From IMG/VR virus record IMGVR_UViG_3300030518_000026, positions 1 to 31,079 of that record: a stretch of DNA of 31,079 nucleotides; one strand, written 5' to 3'. This DNA comes from a virus. Below are positions 6,760-31,079 of the stretch, piece by piece (position 1 is the first letter of the stretch; every line of letters begins with the position of its first letter). The translations under genes were made by a program, and so were the position numbers. A model generated the notes under the pieces. The model was not told the origin of the DNA and did not search any database. It saw only the letters and a program-made list of their open reading frames with translations.

Positions 6760-8211
6760 TTGCCTGATTGGTTTGATCGCGGCATGGATTTGATGAAAGA
6801 TACTGGCGTGACGCCTTTGGTTGAAAAACTTATCGAACGGCTTCACGCATTAGACGAGATCGGCGGGCAAGCCGTGATTGCGGAAATGGAAGCCGCAGAA
6901 GAACCCGCATGGATGATTGCGCAGATGCGGGGCCGGGTGGCGCTGATGACGCGCGATTGGGTATCGGCGCACGATCATTTCCATATGGCGGTGCATCTCA
7001 ATCCCGACGATTGGGATTCGTGGATATGTCTCGCGTCGGCTTGCTACGAAATGGGGTTGTTTGAACAATCCATTTTGCACGCGCGGGAAGCCGCTGTGCG
7101 GTATCCCGAGCACGGCAGGGCATGGTTGAAGCTGGGGGCCGCACACGCGCTCCTACAACACCATGCGGAGGCGTTGGCGTGCTTTGAGCGGGCGCTGTTC
7201 TTATCGCCCAACGACGCGGAAACGCATCACAGCATTGGGGCCATGTTCTCGTCTATGGCGCTTCCCGAGTTGGCACTGCGTCATTTCCGCGCCGCGCAAC
7301 AGATTGAGGGCGTTTACGTTCAATCGGCATGTGGTGAAGCCGCTGAATTGCTTCGCATGGGGGAATGGCTTGAAGGGTGGGAGAAATTCGAGGATCGGTT
7401 CCGCCTGCCCGCGTTTGCGTTGCCGTGGTGGTTCACCGGCCAGCCGCCTTATACGGGCGATCTGGACGGCTTGCGCGGCAAGCGAGTGCTATTGTGGGCC
7501 GAACAAGGCTATGGCGATAGCCTGCAATTCTCGCGGTATATCCCGAAAGTTATGGAAGTGGCGTCACACGTCACGATTGAGACGCATCAACCGCTTGAAC
7601 GCCTATTCAAATCGTTTGGTTGCGAAGTGACGGTGCATCGGCGTGACGCGCCTCCTGATGTGGATGTGACGGTATCTCTCATGTCGTTGCCTCGGCTGTT
7701 CGGCACCACGCCAGAGAATTGCCCGCCGCCTTCTGTGTTTGATGTGGAACCTAAACCGCAACGCGCGAAGATTGGCGTGTGTTGGGCGGGTGGTGCGCGG
7801 CCAGATGAGCCTCTTGCGAACGCTATCGACAACCGCCGATCCATCGGACCGGATCGGATCATCCCGGTTATTGAAGCGTTAGGCGCGGGAAATTGGATAT
7901 CGTTGCAGCAAGAAGATTTGCCGAAAGGCGACTGGCAAGATACGGCCAACATCGTTGCAGGGCTTGATCTGGTGATCACAGTAGATACCGCTATGGCTCA
8001 CTTGGCGGCGTCGTTGGGCGTTTCGACGTGGCTTATGTGCCGGTTTGATACGTGCTGGCGCTGGGGCCAATACGCCGAGCATACGGTTTGGTATCCGTCC
8101 ATGCGGATATTCCGGCAACGGTTCCTCGGAGATTGGGGCGGCGTTGTAAAGCAAGTCATCGCGGCAATAGGAGAGCGCCATGCGGCGGCGTCGGCAGGTA
8201 CGGGGATTTGA
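6760..8211 (+). CDS. TPR-containing glycosyltransferase, 483 aa
   Basis: Residues about 55-200 are tetratricopeptide repeats (for example WICLASACYEMGLFEQSILHA, cut here, then AWLKLGAAHALLQHHAEALACFERAL). Residues 240-470 resemble the GT-B/heptosyltransferase-type domain common after TPRs: KRVLLWAEQGYGDSLQF, then IGVCWAGGARPDE around 338-350 and DLVITVDTAMAHLAASLGV at 403-421, the usual sugar-nucleotide site. Such proteins are frequent in phages and may modify host surface sugars or a virion protein. The start is uncertain: TTG at 6760 lacks a ribosome site and ATG at 6784 is an alternative; the frame is open further upstream. The end overlaps the next gene by 32 nt. Confidence 0.8.
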   Translation: MPDWFDRGMDLMKDTGVTPLVEKLIERLHALDEIGGQAVIAEMEAAEEPAWMIAQMRGRVALMTRDWVSAHDHFHMAVHLNPDDWDSWICLASACYEMGLFEQSILHAREAAVRYPEHGRAWLKLGAAHALLQHHAEALACFERALFLSPNDAETHHSIGAMFSSMALPELALRHFRAAQQIEGVYVQSACGEAAELLRMGEWLEGWEKFEDRFRLPAFALPWWFTGQPPYTGDLDGLRGKRVLLWAEQGYGDSLQFSRYIPKVMEVASHVTIETHQPLERLFKSFGCEVTVHRRDAPPDVDVTVSLMSLPRLFGTTPENCPPPSVFDVEPKPQRAKIGVCWAGGARPDEPLANAIDNRRSIGPDRIIPVIEALGAGNWISLQQEDLPKGDWQDTANIVAGLDLVITVDTAMAHLAASLGVSTWLMCRFDTCWRWGQYAEHTVWYPSMRIFRQRFLGDWGGVVKQVIAAIGERHAAASAGTGI

Positions 8212-8395
8212 TCCCGTCCGGGATTGGGATGGCCGTGTGACGGCTCCTAATCACACGCTGATCACGGCTGAACAGATGCAGTGGAACGCGCAGAACAATC
8301 TGCGCATGATGGAACAGATACCGCGCATCGCAAAAGAGGACGCGGAAGCCAACGCAACGCCTATTGGCGGCATGCAGTTTAGACGGAGAGATTGA
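8180..8395 (+). CDS. small hypothetical protein, 71 aa
   Basis: Its ATG follows AGGAGA by 6 nt and lies within the end of the glycosyltransferase gene. The protein is basic at both ends (MRRRRQVRGFD... and MQFRRRD) with a helical, Asn/Gln/Met-rich centre (AEQMQWNAQNNLRMMEQI). A nucleic-acid-binding or virion-internal role is possible but not shown. The stop overlaps the next ATG (TGATG). Not recognised as a known family. Confidence 0.7.
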   Translation: MRRRRQVRGFDPVRDWDGRVTAPNHTLITAEQMQWNAQNNLRMMEQIPRIAKEDAEANATPIGGMQFRRRD

Positions 8396-8667
8396 TGGAC
8401 GACGCAAGCGATAACATTGCGATGTTGCCAGGGGCAACCATTTCTGATCGCTTGATGAAGCCAAGTCCCGAAGTGATGGAAATGGCGGAAAATTTCCTTG
8501 ATCGTGTAAAATCTGGTGAAACGACTGGGTTTGCGATTGTCGAAATTCGATATGATCTACTTGGTATCCGAACAACTTGGCACGCGACAAACAACACCAT
8601 GCTGATGGGGGCAACATCTCGCATGCTGCATGAAATGAATGTATCAGCCTATGATGGCGCTTCGTGA
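8395..8667 (+). CDS. hypothetical protein, 90 aa
   Basis: ATG at 8395 (MDDASDNIAMLPG) with GGAGAG 5 nt upstream, coupled to the previous stop. An acidic helical N-terminus (SPEVMEMAENFLDRVKSGET) leads to strands (GFAIVEIRYDLLGIRTTWHATN) and a short helix. It resembles small host-defence- or packaging-region proteins of phages, without a family I can name. The DNA from here through the front half of the terminase is noticeably more AT-rich than the structural genes downstream. The stop overlaps the next start (GTGA). Confidence 0.7.
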   Translation: MDDASDNIAMLPGATISDRLMKPSPEVMEMAENFLDRVKSGETTGFAIVEIRYDLLGIRTTWHATNNTMLMGATSRMLHEMNVSAYDGAS

Positions 8668-8828
8668 TATTCGAACCCGGCTATTATTGGGCGCGCGGAG
8701 ATGACGGAACACATTTCGTTGTGCTTTTGGAAGATGGGGAATGGTATTGTTGCGGCGTGGAAAATCCGATCAATTCCAATTTTGATGAGCGACAAATTAT
8801 TGTCCGCATCCAACCGTTGATGAACTGA
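8664..8828 (+). CDS. small hypothetical protein, 54 aa
   Basis: A GTG at 8664 overlaps the preceding stop (GTGA) and opens a 54-residue frame beginning MIFEPGYYWARGDDGTHF, then VVLLEDGEWYCCGVENP and ending IIVRIQPLMN. The rhythm, strands with aromatic residues separated by Gly/Asp turns and ending in a hydrophobic strand, looks like a genuine small beta protein, similar in style to small 'YWAR...W' proteins of phages. It ends 7 nt before the terminase start. No ribosome site is evident, so expression probably depends on coupling. Confidence 0.7.
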   Translation: MIFEPGYYWARGDDGTHFVVLLEDGEWYCCGVENPINSNFDERQIIVRIQPLMN

Positions 8829-8835
8829 GGTCCAT

Positions 8836-10827
8836 ATGGCTAAGCATCCCAAGTGGTTTCCGCTTTTCAAGAAATACCTTGGGGCGTTGCGCATTCAATC
8901 TAAGCACGCGGTGTCTGATGCCACAGGCGAAGGCACTAAGTTGAAACTATGGACTTCGCAACAACGAGTGCTTGACGGAATTGCCGAGGGTTTAGAAAAC
9001 GGGATTCACACGTTTTACATTTTGAAAAGCCGACAGCTAGGCGTGACTACCATCACGATGGCGCTTACAATCTTTTGGTTGGCTCTAAACCCTGGAGTGA
9101 TTGGTGTATTTGTTTCGGATAATGATGATAACTCGGTAAAGAACCGAGTTACGATCCGAACATACATTAAATCCCTTTCCCCTTTTATGGGCAAAAGTTT
9201 TGCAGTCGTAACTGACAACAAACAAGGGTTTACGTTTTCTAACGGCTCTCGTTTGGATATGCGCGTTGCAGGAAAATCAAAAGAGAATTGGGGTGAAGGT
9301 GAAGGCTACTTGCTTGGCCATCTCACTGAATTATCAAAATTTGGTAAAGCGCAAGGCGTGGCAAACTTTCGTCACGCAATGGCACCTGAAAACCCGCGCG
9401 CTCTTTACATCATGGAGAGCACAGCGAACGGTCCCAACCACTGGAAAGAAATATGGGATGGTGCTCGCGCCGATCCTTATTTCTCGAAAGCCATTTTTGT
9501 TGGATGGTGGGCAAACGAAACAAATCGTATCAAAATGACTGACAAACGGTTTCGCGTGTTTGGAACTGCTGGTTTAACACCAGAAGAAAACGAAAAAGTT
9601 AAGAAAGTCAAAGATTTATACCATTTTGAAATTACGATGGAGCAAATCGCTTGGTATCGCGCCGAACAAACAAAGCCAGCTTCCAATGAAGATGATATGG
9701 GGCAGAATCAACCTTGGACGGAAGAGGAAGCGTTCATCACCACAGGCTCATCGTTCTTTCAGCCACGCCGGTTGATGGAAGCACGAGAGCGCATCACATC
9801 CGCACCAGAGGCGCTGGTTGACGAAGGCGGATATGGATATTGGGGTTACACTTTTCACCTTGATGACGAGTATTATATGTCAAAGGTTGAAGAGGTGACG
9901 GACGGAGCGCATCACGATTTAATCAAATTGCGTGTGTGGGAAAAACCTCACAAAGATGGTTTTTACGTTATTGGAGTCGATGTGGCTGGCGGTCGCAGCG
10001 AAGATAGTAATTTACACAGTGCATCGGTCTGGCGCGTGTATGCAGACAAGATGGTGCAAGTTGCGGAATGGGCCGATAGCATCCCCGAGACGCGGCACTG
10101 CGCATGGGTGACGGCTTATCTTGCAGGCCAATATGCAAATTGCCAGATCAATATCGACATGACTGGCGGGATTGGTATCGCCGTTATGCAAGCGTTTGAA
10201 GATTTACGATCCCGTATGCGCTCGGATATGTATGGCGACAAAATGAAAGCGGCTATTGCTTTGGCGAGAATTGAGCGTGACGCCAAACGCGAAGCCGAAG
10301 GACTGCCGCCGTTGCGGGATTTACCTACGAACGGATTTGGCGGCAATTTTGCTTTTGACGATTTTTTATCGTCAGCTAATTGGTATTTGTATCGCCGTGT
10401 GGACAGCCCAGGGCCGGGGTTCATGTATAACACTGTGATGAGCTACAAGCTCAAATTCCACATGATGAACGCTCTGCGCGATAGCTGGGTCACGAACTTG
10501 CTGGAAATCCGGTCAGTTCCGTTGCTAGACGAAATGGCAACGGTTGTGCAGACAAGATCAGACATTGGGGCGTCCGCCCCTGGACGCGAACGTGATGATC
10601 GGACGTTTGCAATGGCTCTGGCAAACATGACTTGGATTGAGAACCTTCGCGGCGGGTTAATTGCTCAGGGCGTGACGTGGGAGGGCAGCAAAGCCAAGGA
10701 GGCGGGTTCTATCTCGCCCGTGGCGGAAACCCTCAATCGTCGGATATACAGCATCCTACGGGCCGCAGATGAGGATCGGGATGCACCGCCGCCGTTGACG
10801 TTCTTTGAGCAAAGGGGATTTTCTTAA
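8836..10827 (+). CDS. terL: terminase large subunit (DNA-packaging motor), 663 aa
   Basis: The ATPase half is clear: Walker A KSRQLGVTT at residues 64-72, a Walker B-like strand YLLGHLTELSKF at 158-169 with the catalytic Glu in HLTE, and the coupling motif ESTANG at 194-199. The RNase H-like nuclease half begins with FYVIGVDVAGG (Asp382) and continues with INIDMTGGIG (Asp441), the acidic residues that bind the metals cutting concatemeric DNA. The length is typical. The ATG has GAGG 5 nt upstream. It starts the virion gene run and its stop overlaps the next ATG (TAATG). The front half is AT-richer than the back half. Confidence 0.95.
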   Translation: MAKHPKWFPLFKKYLGALRIQSKHAVSDATGEGTKLKLWTSQQRVLDGIAEGLENGIHTFYILKSRQLGVTTITMALTIFWLALNPGVIGVFVSDNDDNSVKNRVTIRTYIKSLSPFMGKSFAVVTDNKQGFTFSNGSRLDMRVAGKSKENWGEGEGYLLGHLTELSKFGKAQGVANFRHAMAPENPRALYIMESTANGPNHWKEIWDGARADPYFSKAIFVGWWANETNRIKMTDKRFRVFGTAGLTPEENEKVKKVKDLYHFEITMEQIAWYRAEQTKPASNEDDMGQNQPWTEEEAFITTGSSFFQPRRLMEARERITSAPEALVDEGGYGYWGYTFHLDDEYYMSKVEEVTDGAHHDLIKLRVWEKPHKDGFYVIGVDVAGGRSEDSNLHSASVWRVYADKMVQVAEWADSIPETRHCAWVTAYLAGQYANCQINIDMTGGIGIAVMQAFEDLRSRMRSDMYGDKMKAAIALARIERDAKREAEGLPPLRDLPTNGFGGNFAFDDFLSSANWYLYRRVDSPGPGFMYNTVMSYKLKFHMMNALRDSWVTNLLEIRSVPLLDEMATVVQTRSDIGASAPGRERDDRTFAMALANMTWIENLRGGLIAQGVTWEGSKAKEAGSISPVAETLNRRIYSILRAADEDRDAPPPLTFFEQRGFS

Positions 10828-11096
10828 TGCCGATTGAGAAGTGCTTTACGAAAGACGTTATGCCTTCATGGCTTGTAGAGGTCGGCACGCGGTATCTAGC
10901 CAACGCCACGCATCGACTTTGCTTTTTGCAATTGGCGGGGGAAACGGAAATCTTATACGTTGTGAGCGATCAGCCTTTGCCCGAAACGGTGGACGCTGCG
11001 ATTGCGATGGTTGAGGCATGGAGGATTGCAGATGAAATCGACCGAGACGAAAGAAGCGGTAAAGGCTCCCGTAGAAACCGCAAAGCCCAAATCTGA
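10827..11096 (+). CDS. hypothetical protein, 89 aa
   Basis: Starts on the last base of the terminase stop (TAATG). Predicted alpha/beta: MPIEKCFTKDVMPSWLVEV, strand RLCFLQLAGETEILYVVS, then a helix (DAAIAMVEAWRIADEID) and a very basic tail (GKGSRRNRKAQI). The product is not recognised. The next gene starts inside its 3' end by 65 nt in a different frame, an unusually long overlap. Its position directly after the terminase suggests a packaging or head-related helper. Confidence 0.65.
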   Translation: MPIEKCFTKDVMPSWLVEVGTRYLANATHRLCFLQLAGETEILYVVSDQPLPETVDAAIAMVEAWRIADEIDRDERSGKGSRRNRKAQI

Positions 11097-19158: not shown

Positions 19159-21456
19159 ATGTCGGGGCAACTCGCCAAACTATCGCAGGCCGAAGGTCAA
19201 CGCTTAGGGCTTCCGAACGACTTTAAATCGTGGTCGCCTTTTCCGTTTGCGGGAATCAACCAACAGGACGCTCGCACCGCAATCGAAGATGGTGAGTTCT
19301 ATTGGGTTGAGAATTTCTTGCTTACGGGGCGAGGAAGCTACCGCACTTTATGGGATAAAGGGTCCGCTCTTTACACCGCAAGCGGAAACACCATCGTCTA
19401 TTTTCAGTGGTTCAACATCGGTGCAAGTTCATATTGTGCGTTGTTCTTCTCGGACGGCACGGCGGCGCAGGTAGCGTATCCGTCTGGCGCAGTGACGACG
19501 ATCACAAGCACGACTGGCACGTTCTACAACGGCGGGCAGTTGCCGGTTGCGTGTCAAAGTGGTTCGCAATTCCTGTTGATCGGCAACAACCTCACGACGA
19601 ATAGTTATTGGGTATGGGATGGATCGGTCCTGTATTCCGCAGGCTCGCTTGGGCCGTATCAGATTGGTGATTTAACCAGCGGCGGAAGCGGATACACGTC
19701 TGCACCCACGGTGTCTTTTGTCGGCGGATCAGGAAGCGGGGCGACGGGAACTGCTACGATTTCCAACGGTTCTGTGGTGTCGGTTCAACTCACAAATCCA
19801 GGCACGGGATATTCGCCTACCGATCAAGTGCAGATTGTGTTTACGGGAGGCGGATCGGATAACGGAGCGCAATTGACCGCAGTGCTCGCATCATCTGCTG
19901 TCACCTTTGCCGAAGTGATTTCGGGTGGTTCTGGCTACACAACCGCGCCATCGGTGGCGATTACGGGCGGCGGCGGGTCTGGTGCCACGGCAACAGCTAC
20001 GGTATCAGGCGGCGTTGTGACTGGCATCTCGATCACGGCTGGCGGCTCGGGTTATACATCCACGCCAAGCATAGGTTTTTCGGGAGGCGGCGGAACTGGG
20101 GCTTCTGCAATTGCAGTTCTCAGTTCGGGTGCTGTGGCCTCTGTGACGGTGGTATCTGGTGGCAGTGGGTTCACCGGCACGCCAACGCTGACGTTTAGCG
20201 GCGGCGGCGGATCGGGCGCTACAGCTACAGCAACTCTCACATCAGGCGTTATCACGTCGGTCAGCGTCACGGCTGGGGGGGCAGGATATTCGACGGCCCC
20301 GGCTGTTGTTGTGGCAACCACGTTCAACAACGCGGCGGCTGGTTCCAACAACGTCATGCCGTTCGGCATTTCCGGCACATCTATTGAGACGTTTCTAAGC
20401 CGCGTGTGGATCAGCAACCCATGCCAAGTCGGCCCTGCGTCTAATGGTGGGGTGATCCAAAATAGCGCGCCGGGTTCGATTACGAATTTCTCTACATCGT
20501 CGGGCGGCAATTTATTCACCAATTCGGATCGGTTTCTACGCGCGCAATACGTCGCATTGCACCAATCGAATGGGTATTTATACCCTATGGGCGATTCGTC
20601 GGTTTCGGTGATTTCCAACGTCCAGACAACGGGCAGTTCCGCCACCACGACATTCAACTATCAGAATACGTCCTCGCAGATCGGCGTAGCGTGGCGCGAT
20701 ACCGTGCAGGATTATGGGCAGGCGGTGCTGTTCGGGAACGCCAACGGCGTGCAGGGGCTTTACGGCGGCGCTGTGCAGCGTGTGTCTAAGAAGGTAAACA
20801 ACATTTTTGATAAGGTGGTTCTGCCCGCGTCGGGCGGCGTCACGCCATCGGCGGCGGTCGCAAACATCCATACCATTCCGGTCTATTTGATCCTGCTAAC
20901 CGTTACCGATCCGTTCACGCAATCGCCGCGCACTGTGATGTTGGGTTGGGATGAACGGAATTTCTTGGTCGCATCGCAAAGTGTCTCATTGACGTTTATC
21001 GGAACGCAGGAAGTCAATTCTGCAATGACGGCGTGGGGAACGGATGGCACAAATCTCTATCCGTTGTTCGCATCGCCTTCTACGGCTATGACAAAAGCCT
21101 TGGTGACGAAGATGTTCAACGCGGAACGTCCTTACATCGTCAAGCAGCCTTTGGCAGTGTATCTCCGTGCGACGGATAAAACATCCGGTCAAACCGGCGT
21201 AGCGGCAACGGTCACGATGGAGAGCGCCGGAATTGCGCAACAGGTGGGGCAACCGTCTCAATTGCCGTCCACCAGCTACCCTAACACCGTGCAACCAAAC
21301 TTCTATGCGCCAGACTACACCTATCCAGTATGGGGTGCGGAAACATCAACCGTGCCTGGAACGGCTCTAGGTGCTACAATCAGTTCGACTTCTGCTGATT
21401 TTGTGCTGGAAGATATCACCATCGCTTACACCGATATCCAAGCGATCTACTCGTAA
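19159..21456 (+). CDS. tail tube/packaged-DNA stabilisation protein with repeat insert, 765 aa
   Basis: The first 165 residues match the style of tail tube B (T7 gp12) or P22 gp10 proteins: FPFAGINQQDARTAIEDGEF, YWVENFLLTGRGSYRTLWDKG, then repeated WxxSDG-type propeller strands. An insert at residues 171-390 has six repeats of GSGYTSAPTV plus GGGGSGATATATV, with Tyr at 179, 218, 260, 299, 338 and 377, that is a 39-residue period except one of 42. The tube-like fold resumes after 390 (FLSRVWISNP, RFLRAQYVALHQSNGYLYPMG). The protein probably closes the portal and forms the tail nozzle, with the insert as a spoke. Confidence 0.8.
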   Translation: MSGQLAKLSQAEGQRLGLPNDFKSWSPFPFAGINQQDARTAIEDGEFYWVENFLLTGRGSYRTLWDKGSALYTASGNTIVYFQWFNIGASSYCALFFSDGTAAQVAYPSGAVTTITSTTGTFYNGGQLPVACQSGSQFLLIGNNLTTNSYWVWDGSVLYSAGSLGPYQIGDLTSGGSGYTSAPTVSFVGGSGSGATGTATISNGSVVSVQLTNPGTGYSPTDQVQIVFTGGGSDNGAQLTAVLASSAVTFAEVISGGSGYTTAPSVAITGGGGSGATATATVSGGVVTGISITAGGSGYTSTPSIGFSGGGGTGASAIAVLSSGAVASVTVVSGGSGFTGTPTLTFSGGGGSGATATATLTSGVITSVSVTAGGAGYSTAPAVVVATTFNNAAAGSNNVMPFGISGTSIETFLSRVWISNPCQVGPASNGGVIQNSAPGSITNFSTSSGGNLFTNSDRFLRAQYVALHQSNGYLYPMGDSSVSVISNVQTTGSSATTTFNYQNTSSQIGVAWRDTVQDYGQAVLFGNANGVQGLYGGAVQRVSKKVNNIFDKVVLPASGGVTPSAAVANIHTIPVYLILLTVTDPFTQSPRTVMLGWDERNFLVASQSVSLTFIGTQEVNSAMTAWGTDGTNLYPLFASPSTAMTKALVTKMFNAERPYIVKQPLAVYLRATDKTSGQTGVAATVTMESAGIAQQVGQPSQLPSTSYPNTVQPNFYAPDYTYPVWGAETSTVPGTALGATISSTSADFVLEDITIAYTDIQAIYS
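19669..20328 (+). repeat. six-unit in-frame coding repeat
   Basis: Six copies of a 117-nt unit (one of 126 nt) encode GSGYTSAPTV-type segments within the tail-tube gene. Copies differ enough at the third codon position to suggest they are old or kept diverse. The same peptide motif recurs in the capsid-associated protein at 17307-18386. Confidence 0.8.
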
Positions 21457-29088: not shown

Positions 29089-30498
29089 GTGGCAGTTCCG
29101 TCTAACGCCACCTATTCCAACGGATCGGGCGTAGTTTCTGGAGATCAGTTAGATACGTTTGTGCAAGGCGGGATGCTGGTTGCAAATCTGCGCGTGTTCA
29201 CCGGATTGTCGAATATGACGGTGGTTACGCTCGGGACCAGCACGGCTGGCGATGGCGGCGGTGGTGAGTTTTTTTGGAACTCTACCAGCACGGCCACGGA
29301 TGACGGAGTGACGGTAATTCGGCCCTATGGCTTGACGGTGGGGGCTTGGCTCCGTGTGCCGCAACAGATCAGCGGCGGTTACATTTCCAACGTCGCGATT
29401 ACAGGTTCATCGTTTGGCTCTGGCACGATTAGCAATACCGCGATCTCAAACGGGACTGTTGCTAATGCCGCGATCTCGGGCGGGACAATTGCAAACGCAA
29501 CCATCTCCAATGTTACCTATGCTGGCAATTTGTCAGTTGCAGGAACTGTTGCGATGGGCAGCAGCTTTCTGCGCAACAAACTGATCAACGGGGGGATGGC
29601 TGTAGATCAACGCAACGCGGGGGCGTCGCAGACGATCACGGCTGGCGCTGCTTTGGCCTACACCGTAGATCGTTGGTATGGCTACTGCACGGGCGCGAAC
29701 GTCACAGGGCAACGGGTGTCGGCCAGCGCGCCAAACCAATACGTTTACCAAATCACAGGCGCGACGGGGAATACCGCAGTCGGGTTTGGGCAGAGGATCG
29801 AAACTGCCAACTCATATGATTTGGCCGGAACCACATCCACGTTATCGGTCGCGTTGGCCGCGTCGTCTATCACGACTGTCAATTGGACGGCTTCGTATGC
29901 CAATTCGACAGACACGTTCGGCACGCTCGCAAGCCCCACGGTTACGCAAATTGCGACCGGAACCTTCACCGTATCTTCCGCGCTCACGACCTACAACAAA
30001 CAGATTTCTATCCCGTCTGCGGCGATCACTGGTTTGCAGATTGTGTTTACCACGGCGGCGCTCACTGGCACGCTATCAATCGGCACCGTGCAACTTGAGC
30101 CGGGTTCTGTGGCCACTCCGTTCGAACGAACAGATATAGGGCGCGAGCTAATCAGGTGTCAGAGGTATTTTGAAACTACTTACAACACTGGTGTAGCTCT
30201 TGGTACTGCAGCTCAGAATGGACAAGGAGATTTTCAAACAATTTCTTATAGTAGTACTTATGGAACTTCTATTGTTTATCCATTTAAAGTTACAAAAAGA
30301 ATTTCTCCTACAATAGTAGGTTATAATCCAGTGTCAGGTGCAGTAAGTACTTTTCAAGATTATAGTGTCAGTGCTCCAAACGGCTCTTTAGGAATAAGTG
30401 TAACTGGCCCACAATCGGTAGGTGTATATAATGTATCATCCAGTTGGTCAGTCGGGCACATCATGGCAATACACCTAGCAATCAACGCGGAGTTGTAA
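29089..30498 (+). CDS. tail fibre protein, 469 aa
   Basis: The N-terminus [20 protein letters not shown] and LDTFVQGG matches the virion-attachment segment of a second fibre gene starting at 30982. After a Thr/Ala/Ser/Gly-rich part with tandem [20 protein letters not shown] repeats, [18 protein letters not shown] and [10 protein letters not shown] start a domain typical of phage fibres, ending [14 protein letters not shown]. The tip (residues about 350-469) lies in AT-rich DNA unlike the rest. GTG start; GGGGAG lies 11 nt upstream. It is probably the receptor-binding protein. Confidence 0.9.
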
Positions 30499-30600
30499 AA
30501 TGTCAACAGGTTATCAGCTTACTTCAGGACTTTCTGTTATACGTCTAGTTGATGGAGCAACTATTCCTAATTCGCCATCAAACATCGATTGGCAAGAGTA
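30150..30600 (+). other. AT-rich block covering the fibre tip and start of the next gene
   Basis: GC counted by hand is 35 of 120 at 30241-30360 (29%), against 35 of 60 (58%) at 29701-29760 in the same fibre gene. The block runs across the fibre stop into the first about 100 nt of the assembly gene and uses codons scarce elsewhere, such as ATA and AGA. It looks like a recently acquired cassette. Confidence 0.8.
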
Positions 30601-30985
30601 CCAAGCATGGCTGGCGGCAGGTAATACGCCGTCCAGTGCTCCAACGATCACTCAGACGCCCTCGCAACTTGCCTCCGCCGCTCTCGTTTCCGTTCCTGTG
30701 ACGTTCACCACGTCCACATCTCTCAGCGCGACATACGGCATATCGTCGGAGGATCGGATGGACATGATGGCAGAAATGGCGGAACTGGCAAAAGCGGCAA
30801 CATTCACCAACGGCACCACTTCGATTGCGTGGCATGACGTGTCGGGAAATGCTCACACGATGAACCTGGCGCAATTTTCCGCTTTCGTGAGTGCCATCGG
30901 CACCTACGTCACGCCGTTGCGCGCCATCGTTAAATCCAACTCAGGCACCGTCCCGCAACCCGAAGCGGTGACGGTGAACGCATGA
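30500..30985 (+). CDS. tail fibre assembly-like protein (DUF4376-type C-terminus), 161 aa
   Basis: The opening [40 protein letters not shown] matches the tail-fibre assembly proteins that help fold the fibre tip. The C-terminus (residues about 85-160), with [40 protein letters not shown], resembles the DUF4376 domain in such proteins. GGAG 6 nt upstream. The first third shares the AT-rich base composition of the fibre tip, as expected if tip and chaperone moved together. Its stop overlaps the next start by ATGA. Confidence 0.8.
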
Positions 30986-31079
30986 GCATCCCGGCCAACG
31001 GAACATTCAGCAACGGTATCGCGGTTATCTCGGGCGACGAGCTTAATACGTTCGTCCAAGGCGATCAGACAGCCGCACA
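30982..31079 (+). CDS. second tail fibre, N-terminus only (runs off the window)
   Basis: The 32 visible residues begin [29 protein letters not shown], closely matching the start of the first fibre at 29089 (pattern P-N-T-SNG-V-SGD-L-TFVQG). So the phage carries two fibres using the same attachment domain. The start overlaps the previous stop (ATGA). The rest is outside the window. Confidence 0.85.

Follow-up and report, generated by a model that had tools for sequence, protein, structure and literature searches.

A probable exchangeable adhesin cassette spanning an AT-rich fibre tip and the start of the downstream chaperone-like gene in a phage record

The window analysed here is the whole of IMG/VR virus record IMGVR_UViG_3300030518_000026, a linear record of 31,079 bases that probably represents a genome fragment. 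Contig L003 is 100% identical to the window across the overlap searched and extends beyond the window end. A prophage-host scan of genomes returned matches in only three metagenome bins (Proteobacteria, Rhodoferax, and Alphaproteobacteria). The feature studied consists of the 3' end of a fibre gene (29089-30498) and the 5' end of the adjoining gene (30500-30985), and both genes, their parts, and the second fibre gene described below lie on the plus strand. The fibre gene has a GTG start and encodes a protein of 469 amino acids, residues 162-469 of which match the tail fiber protein profile phrog_4492 (E 1.5e-43), a match that spans both the fibre body and the tip. Viral contigs contain 77 loci related to this gene, which were sampled through peptide patterns taken from the window fibre, and very different bodies are under-represented as a result. 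The conserved fibre body comprises residues 161-340 (29569-30108), with a mean pairwise identity of 79% among 46 relatives. In the structural model it forms a CBM4-like beta-sandwich, which superposes on CBM4-2 with a VIA Z of 15.6 and an rmsd of 2.4 across 152 residues. The body is followed by a left junction motif of 18 amino acids (residues 344-361, 30118-30171), for which the family consensus is PFERR.YG.ELALCQRYY.

The fibre tip (30172-30498) has 108 amino acids and a GC content of 0.385, and its divergence together with its VIA matches marks it as a putative lectin-like receptor-binding head. The mean identity of the tip among relatives is 21%. The tip model has a pLDDT of 73, which is a modest confidence, and its best VIA matches, with Z of 5.3-6.4, are the C-terminal domains of the LKA-1 and phi297 tailspikes, H-type (snail) agglutinins, R-pyocin foot domains, and an octocoral lectin. 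A Foldseek comparison of the tip model with the PDB gave no significant match, and a PDB sequence search with a profile of body and tip gave no match. The modelled tip thus weakly resembles an R-pyocin-foot or H-type-lectin-like head and may act as the receptor binder; because the VIA match is weak by score, the lectin reading of the tip is offered as a suggestion. A second fibre gene starts at 30982 and is cut by the window end at 31079, and its N-terminal anchor is that of the first fibre (57% identity over 30 amino acids). In L003 this second gene (7894-10947) is an ORF of 1017 amino acids in which the N-terminal anchor of the first fibre is repeated, and the two fibres therefore probably share one attachment site. 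Elsewhere in the window, a protein of 765 amino acids (19159-21456) carries Gly-rich GGSGYT-type repeats and matches virion structural and baseplate families.

The small downstream gene (30500-30985) encodes 161 amino acids and is a putative tail fibre chaperone gene according to its profile matches and its relatives. The N-terminus of the protein matches phrog_34019 (E 3e-9) and phrog_20370 (E 2e-8). The C-terminal part matches DUF4376 (PF14301) with an E of 2e-4 and 22.1 bits, which does not reach the Pfam gathering cut-off of 25. The Phage_tail_APC domain (PF16778) is absent from the window protein and present in five relatives that have the same N-terminal module. Among the relatives, many of the downstream proteins share a common N-terminal module, and the C-terminus varies between Phage_tail_APC, a tail fiber assembly domain, and nothing recognisable; in many relatives the protein has only 50-80 amino acids and no recognised chaperone domain. 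A PDB sequence search with the window protein gave no match. The protein is probably a fibre chaperone, a role predicted from gene position and from the relatives. Within this gene two parts can be distinguished. The first, of about 30 codons (30500-30590), has a GC content of 0.385, and its end is set by a change point in composition and by the position at which homology resumes in sister phages. The rest (30591-30985) has a GC content of 0.58 and is native in composition and codon usage. A right junction motif of 17 amino acids (30581-30631) lies at the transition, and its equivalent in relatives is PANTDYQAYLxWLxxGNTP.

The composition of this region was recomputed. The earlier note had described a fall in GC from 58% at 29701-29760 to 29% at 30241-30360, and both values are exact (0.583 and 0.292); the recovery that it placed about 100 nt into the fibre-assembly gene occurs about 90 nt in. 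The AT-rich block is therefore real as it was described. The lowest-GC windows of 100, 120, 200, 380, and 500 nt in the whole record all fall within the fibre-tip block. Maximum likelihood places the AT segment at 30149-30590 with a log-likelihood gain of 23.7, and the GC content is 0.382 inside versus 0.579 outside. The 95% interval is 30106-30224 for the left edge and 30539-30628 for the right edge. When the window was shuffled 2000 times by triplets, no 441-nt segment fell below a GC content of 0.426. The GC3 is 0.63 in the fibre body, 0.23 in the tip, 0.28 in the opening 120 nt of the downstream gene, and 0.66 in its remainder. The codon-usage score relative to the other window genes follows the same course, from +0.09 in the body to -0.18 in the tip and -0.22 over the initial 90 nt of the downstream gene, and then back to +0.09, while none of 107 control windows scored below +0.02. 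Codon usage in the window is thus foreign only between the two junction motifs. Gene ends in general do not behave in this way, as the last 330 nt of 174 other long ORFs of related loci show a GC change of -0.004 (SD 0.044), and the change of -0.19 in the last 330 nt of the window fibre lies outside the range of all 174. The second-lowest GC content in the window (0.385) is found at 9473-9672, within an ORF of 663 amino acids at 8836-10827.

The relatives reveal how such blocks move. About thirty pairs of relatives, which do not represent independent events, have near-identical flanks and unrelated cassettes. The DNA of the pair L014/L028 matches at 97.8% to a point 3 nt short of the tip, and high identity (98.9%) returns 98 and 86 nt beyond the fibre stop, inside the downstream gene; between these points the DNA is non-alignable and the tip proteins are 17% identical. 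Similar pairs with the same flanks and different cassettes are L005/L011, L033/L036, L036/L042, and L059/L060. The converse arrangement is also found. L028 and L099 share a block of 530 nt at 95.1% identity that begins 51 nt ahead of the tip, inside the PFER..CQRY motif, and extends 140 nt beyond the stop, inside the GNTP motif, so that its end marks the right junction motif. Outside it, the fibre bodies upstream are unrelated and the downstream sequence is divergent. L005 and L102 likewise carry the same cassette on different bodies (613 nt shared at 85%). Scans with the tips of L005 and L028 found a second body, and scans with the tips of L014, L036, and L044 found none. The Mantel correlation is 0.766 between the two halves of the body and 0.081 between body and tip (p 0.053). 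The tips depart from the body tree, so that a block with the same tree as the rest of the gene, which the earlier note had named as evidence against its reading, is not what the family presents. In most pairs the tip and the chaperone start move together, and the proposal that they do so is strongly supported by the exchange seen in relatives. In some pairs (L024/L031, L066/L079, and L082/L083) the tip has been swapped without the chaperone start. L082 and L083 have the same junction motif, a nearly identical downstream gene, and unrelated tips.

The ends of the exchanged piece are narrowly placed. The homology of sister phages ends within 5 nt of the position equivalent to 30171, where the tip starts, in most pairs and mostly restarts 50-116 nt past the fibre stop, within the downstream gene. 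Where a relative shows a strong GC drop, its AT segment begins 18-39 nt ahead of the tip and in most cases ends no more than 92 nt past the fibre stop. The window change points coincide with both motifs (30118-30171 and 30581-30631). Because these change points sit on the same motifs and the AT starts match those of the relatives, the window block is assigned to the same kind of cassette. The AT-rich block is very probably an exchangeable adhesin cassette that consists of the tip, about 108 amino acids after CQRY, and the first approximately 30 codons of the probable chaperone gene. For the window cassette itself, viral contigs and phage records yielded neither a donor of the tip nor a sister phage in which another cassette takes its place. 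A single-protein scan of viral contigs with the window cassette returned only the overlapping contig L003/L080, its DNA had no match in phage records, and the best match of its protein in those records was 30%.

The low GC content could instead be a native property of the tip, which would be intrinsically AT-rich as a mutational equilibrium reached through fast evolution, relaxed codon selection, or amino-acid preferences. A comparison of 67 non-redundant relatives sharing the fibre body lends this reading some weight, as the GC content of the tip is below that of the body in 59 of the 67 (p 8e-11; mean change -0.06) and GC4 is lower in the tip in 62. The mean tip change is -0.105 for high-GC bodies and remains negative (-0.02) where the body GC is below 0.45. 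Since the tips of low-GC phages also shift down slightly, a common tip pool with equal exchange fails to explain the one-sided AT shift, and regression to such a pool was found insufficient as the sole cause of the AT-richness. A native origin is nevertheless improbable. The window has the largest negative residual from the family trend among the 67 (z -2.25), its block spans a gene boundary and stops at a motif inside the next gene, and relatives can be seen to have exchanged the same block. In addition, cyanophage S-2L (L108, MW334946), a high-GC isolate with the same body family and the same N-terminal chaperone module, has no GC drop. As the tips are AT-richer in most relatives, composition by itself argues only weakly for a recent swap, and dating the swap by composition was rejected. 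The window composition points to import without proving or dating it. The "recent cassette swap" of the earlier note thus divides into two parts: the cassette is strongly supported, given the same flanks with different cassettes, the same cassette with different bodies, and the coinciding ends, and "recent" is unproven, given that neither a donor nor a pre-swap sister was found and that AT-richness is family-wide.

Two further explanations dispense with import from another phage. The cassette could have been diversified in place by accelerated mutation, through a diversity-generating retroelement or under strong positive selection. The tips do share a weak framework (KR..PT, ...ASAEL), and they are therefore homologous and very divergent, as such diversification would leave them. 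Bodies with 98.5% identity next to tips of 17% identity and unequal lengths are, however, beyond what point changes would achieve on that time scale, and L028 and L099 carry the same tip on unrelated bodies, which leaves this explanation with very little credibility; for the family, the signs of exchange make a retroelement superfluous. Site-specific DNA inversion that switches alternative tips, as in the G segment of Mu, would find its substrate in two tandem fibre genes with paralogous N-termini, but inverted repeats of at least 16 nt are absent around the block and across the 7.5 kb of L003 that were searched, and inversion appears just as implausible.

For the exchangeable cassette, the most likely route would be its replacement as one piece by homologous recombination, either during co-infection or with a prophage. 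The crossovers would fall in two short conserved coding stretches, PFER..CQRY and N-D-x-Q-x-Y-x-x-W-L-x-x-G-N-T-P. Identity rises within the conserved motifs in the pairs inspected and the sequence searched contains no inverted repeats of at least 16 nt, so homologous recombination is the simplest route, and the recombination may well have been of this kind. The exchange would generate a hybrid fibre with the resident CBM-like body and a new lectin-like tip, together with a hybrid downstream protein with a new N-terminus and the resident C-terminus. By analogy with Pam3, the N-terminus would probably travel with the tip as the part that contacts the fibre. The window's own block presumably came by such an exchange from an AT-rich donor, and the swap of a cassette may be accompanied by a change of host. 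A broader proposal is that this family draws its tips from a large, mobile stock of "tip plus chaperone-start" cassettes that have an AT-leaning composition of their own and are exchanged between unrelated bodies at the two fixed motifs, with the tip and the fibre-contacting chaperone segment never separating; this proposal is tentative and is given slightly less than even chances. The cassette family amounts to a natural, repeated experiment on adhesin change in phages. The exchange unit has marked limits on either side and runs over a gene boundary; it follows as a prediction that a match with the tip is required of the opening part of the downstream protein and not of the rest. The family also carries a warning, because most relatives show a GC drop at the fibre end and such a drop alone is no sign of recent transfer.

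Phages are known to exchange adhesins through recombination at short conserved motifs in coding sequence, with the end of the fibre and the neighbouring gene both taking part. The motifs and the fold of the window family are unrelated to those of the known cases, and the cassette of this family reaches only about 30 codons into the downstream gene, which creates a hybrid gene. No phage paper turned up when the literature was searched for the motif strings. As far as the limited literature search reaches, the principle is known, and the form seen here, which covers two genes, splits both, and ends at fixed motifs, is an undescribed variant. The Pam3 chaperone gp25 binds the fibre through a variable N-terminal domain and trimerises through a conserved C-terminal one (PMC9608196). 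As with the putative chaperone of the window, the chaperone gene of Pam3 gp24-gp25 and of Mu Tfa lies 3' of the fibre gene, and the protein has a variable fibre-binding N-terminus and a more conserved C-terminus; a cassette that joins the tip to the first chaperone codons would fit this division of labour. The two systems differ in that a joint exchange of the N-terminus and the tip is not described in the available part of that report (PMC9608196), and in that the window protein has no PDB sequence match. In the Alteromonas phages, DUF4376 proteins are fibre chaperones, and in A5 and V22 a fibre is exchanged jointly with its cognate chaperone between distant phages (PMC10579305). The window gene has a weak DUF4376 match; whole genes or modules move in the Alteromonas phages, whereas only the tip and the chaperone start move in the window family. 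The metaviromic islands of marine and cryoconite phages are similar in that near-identical phages differ in fibre C-termini and host-recognition genes (PMC3909814, PMC7468147). Those islands were recognised by read recruitment, whereas the window family has defined ends and a two-gene span. The neighbours reported for the R-pyocin foot with its H-type lectin fold, namely LKA-1, phi297, agglutinin, and octocoral lectin (PMC6363177), are the best VIA matches of the tip model; the Z of these matches is low, and Foldseek gave no significant PDB match.
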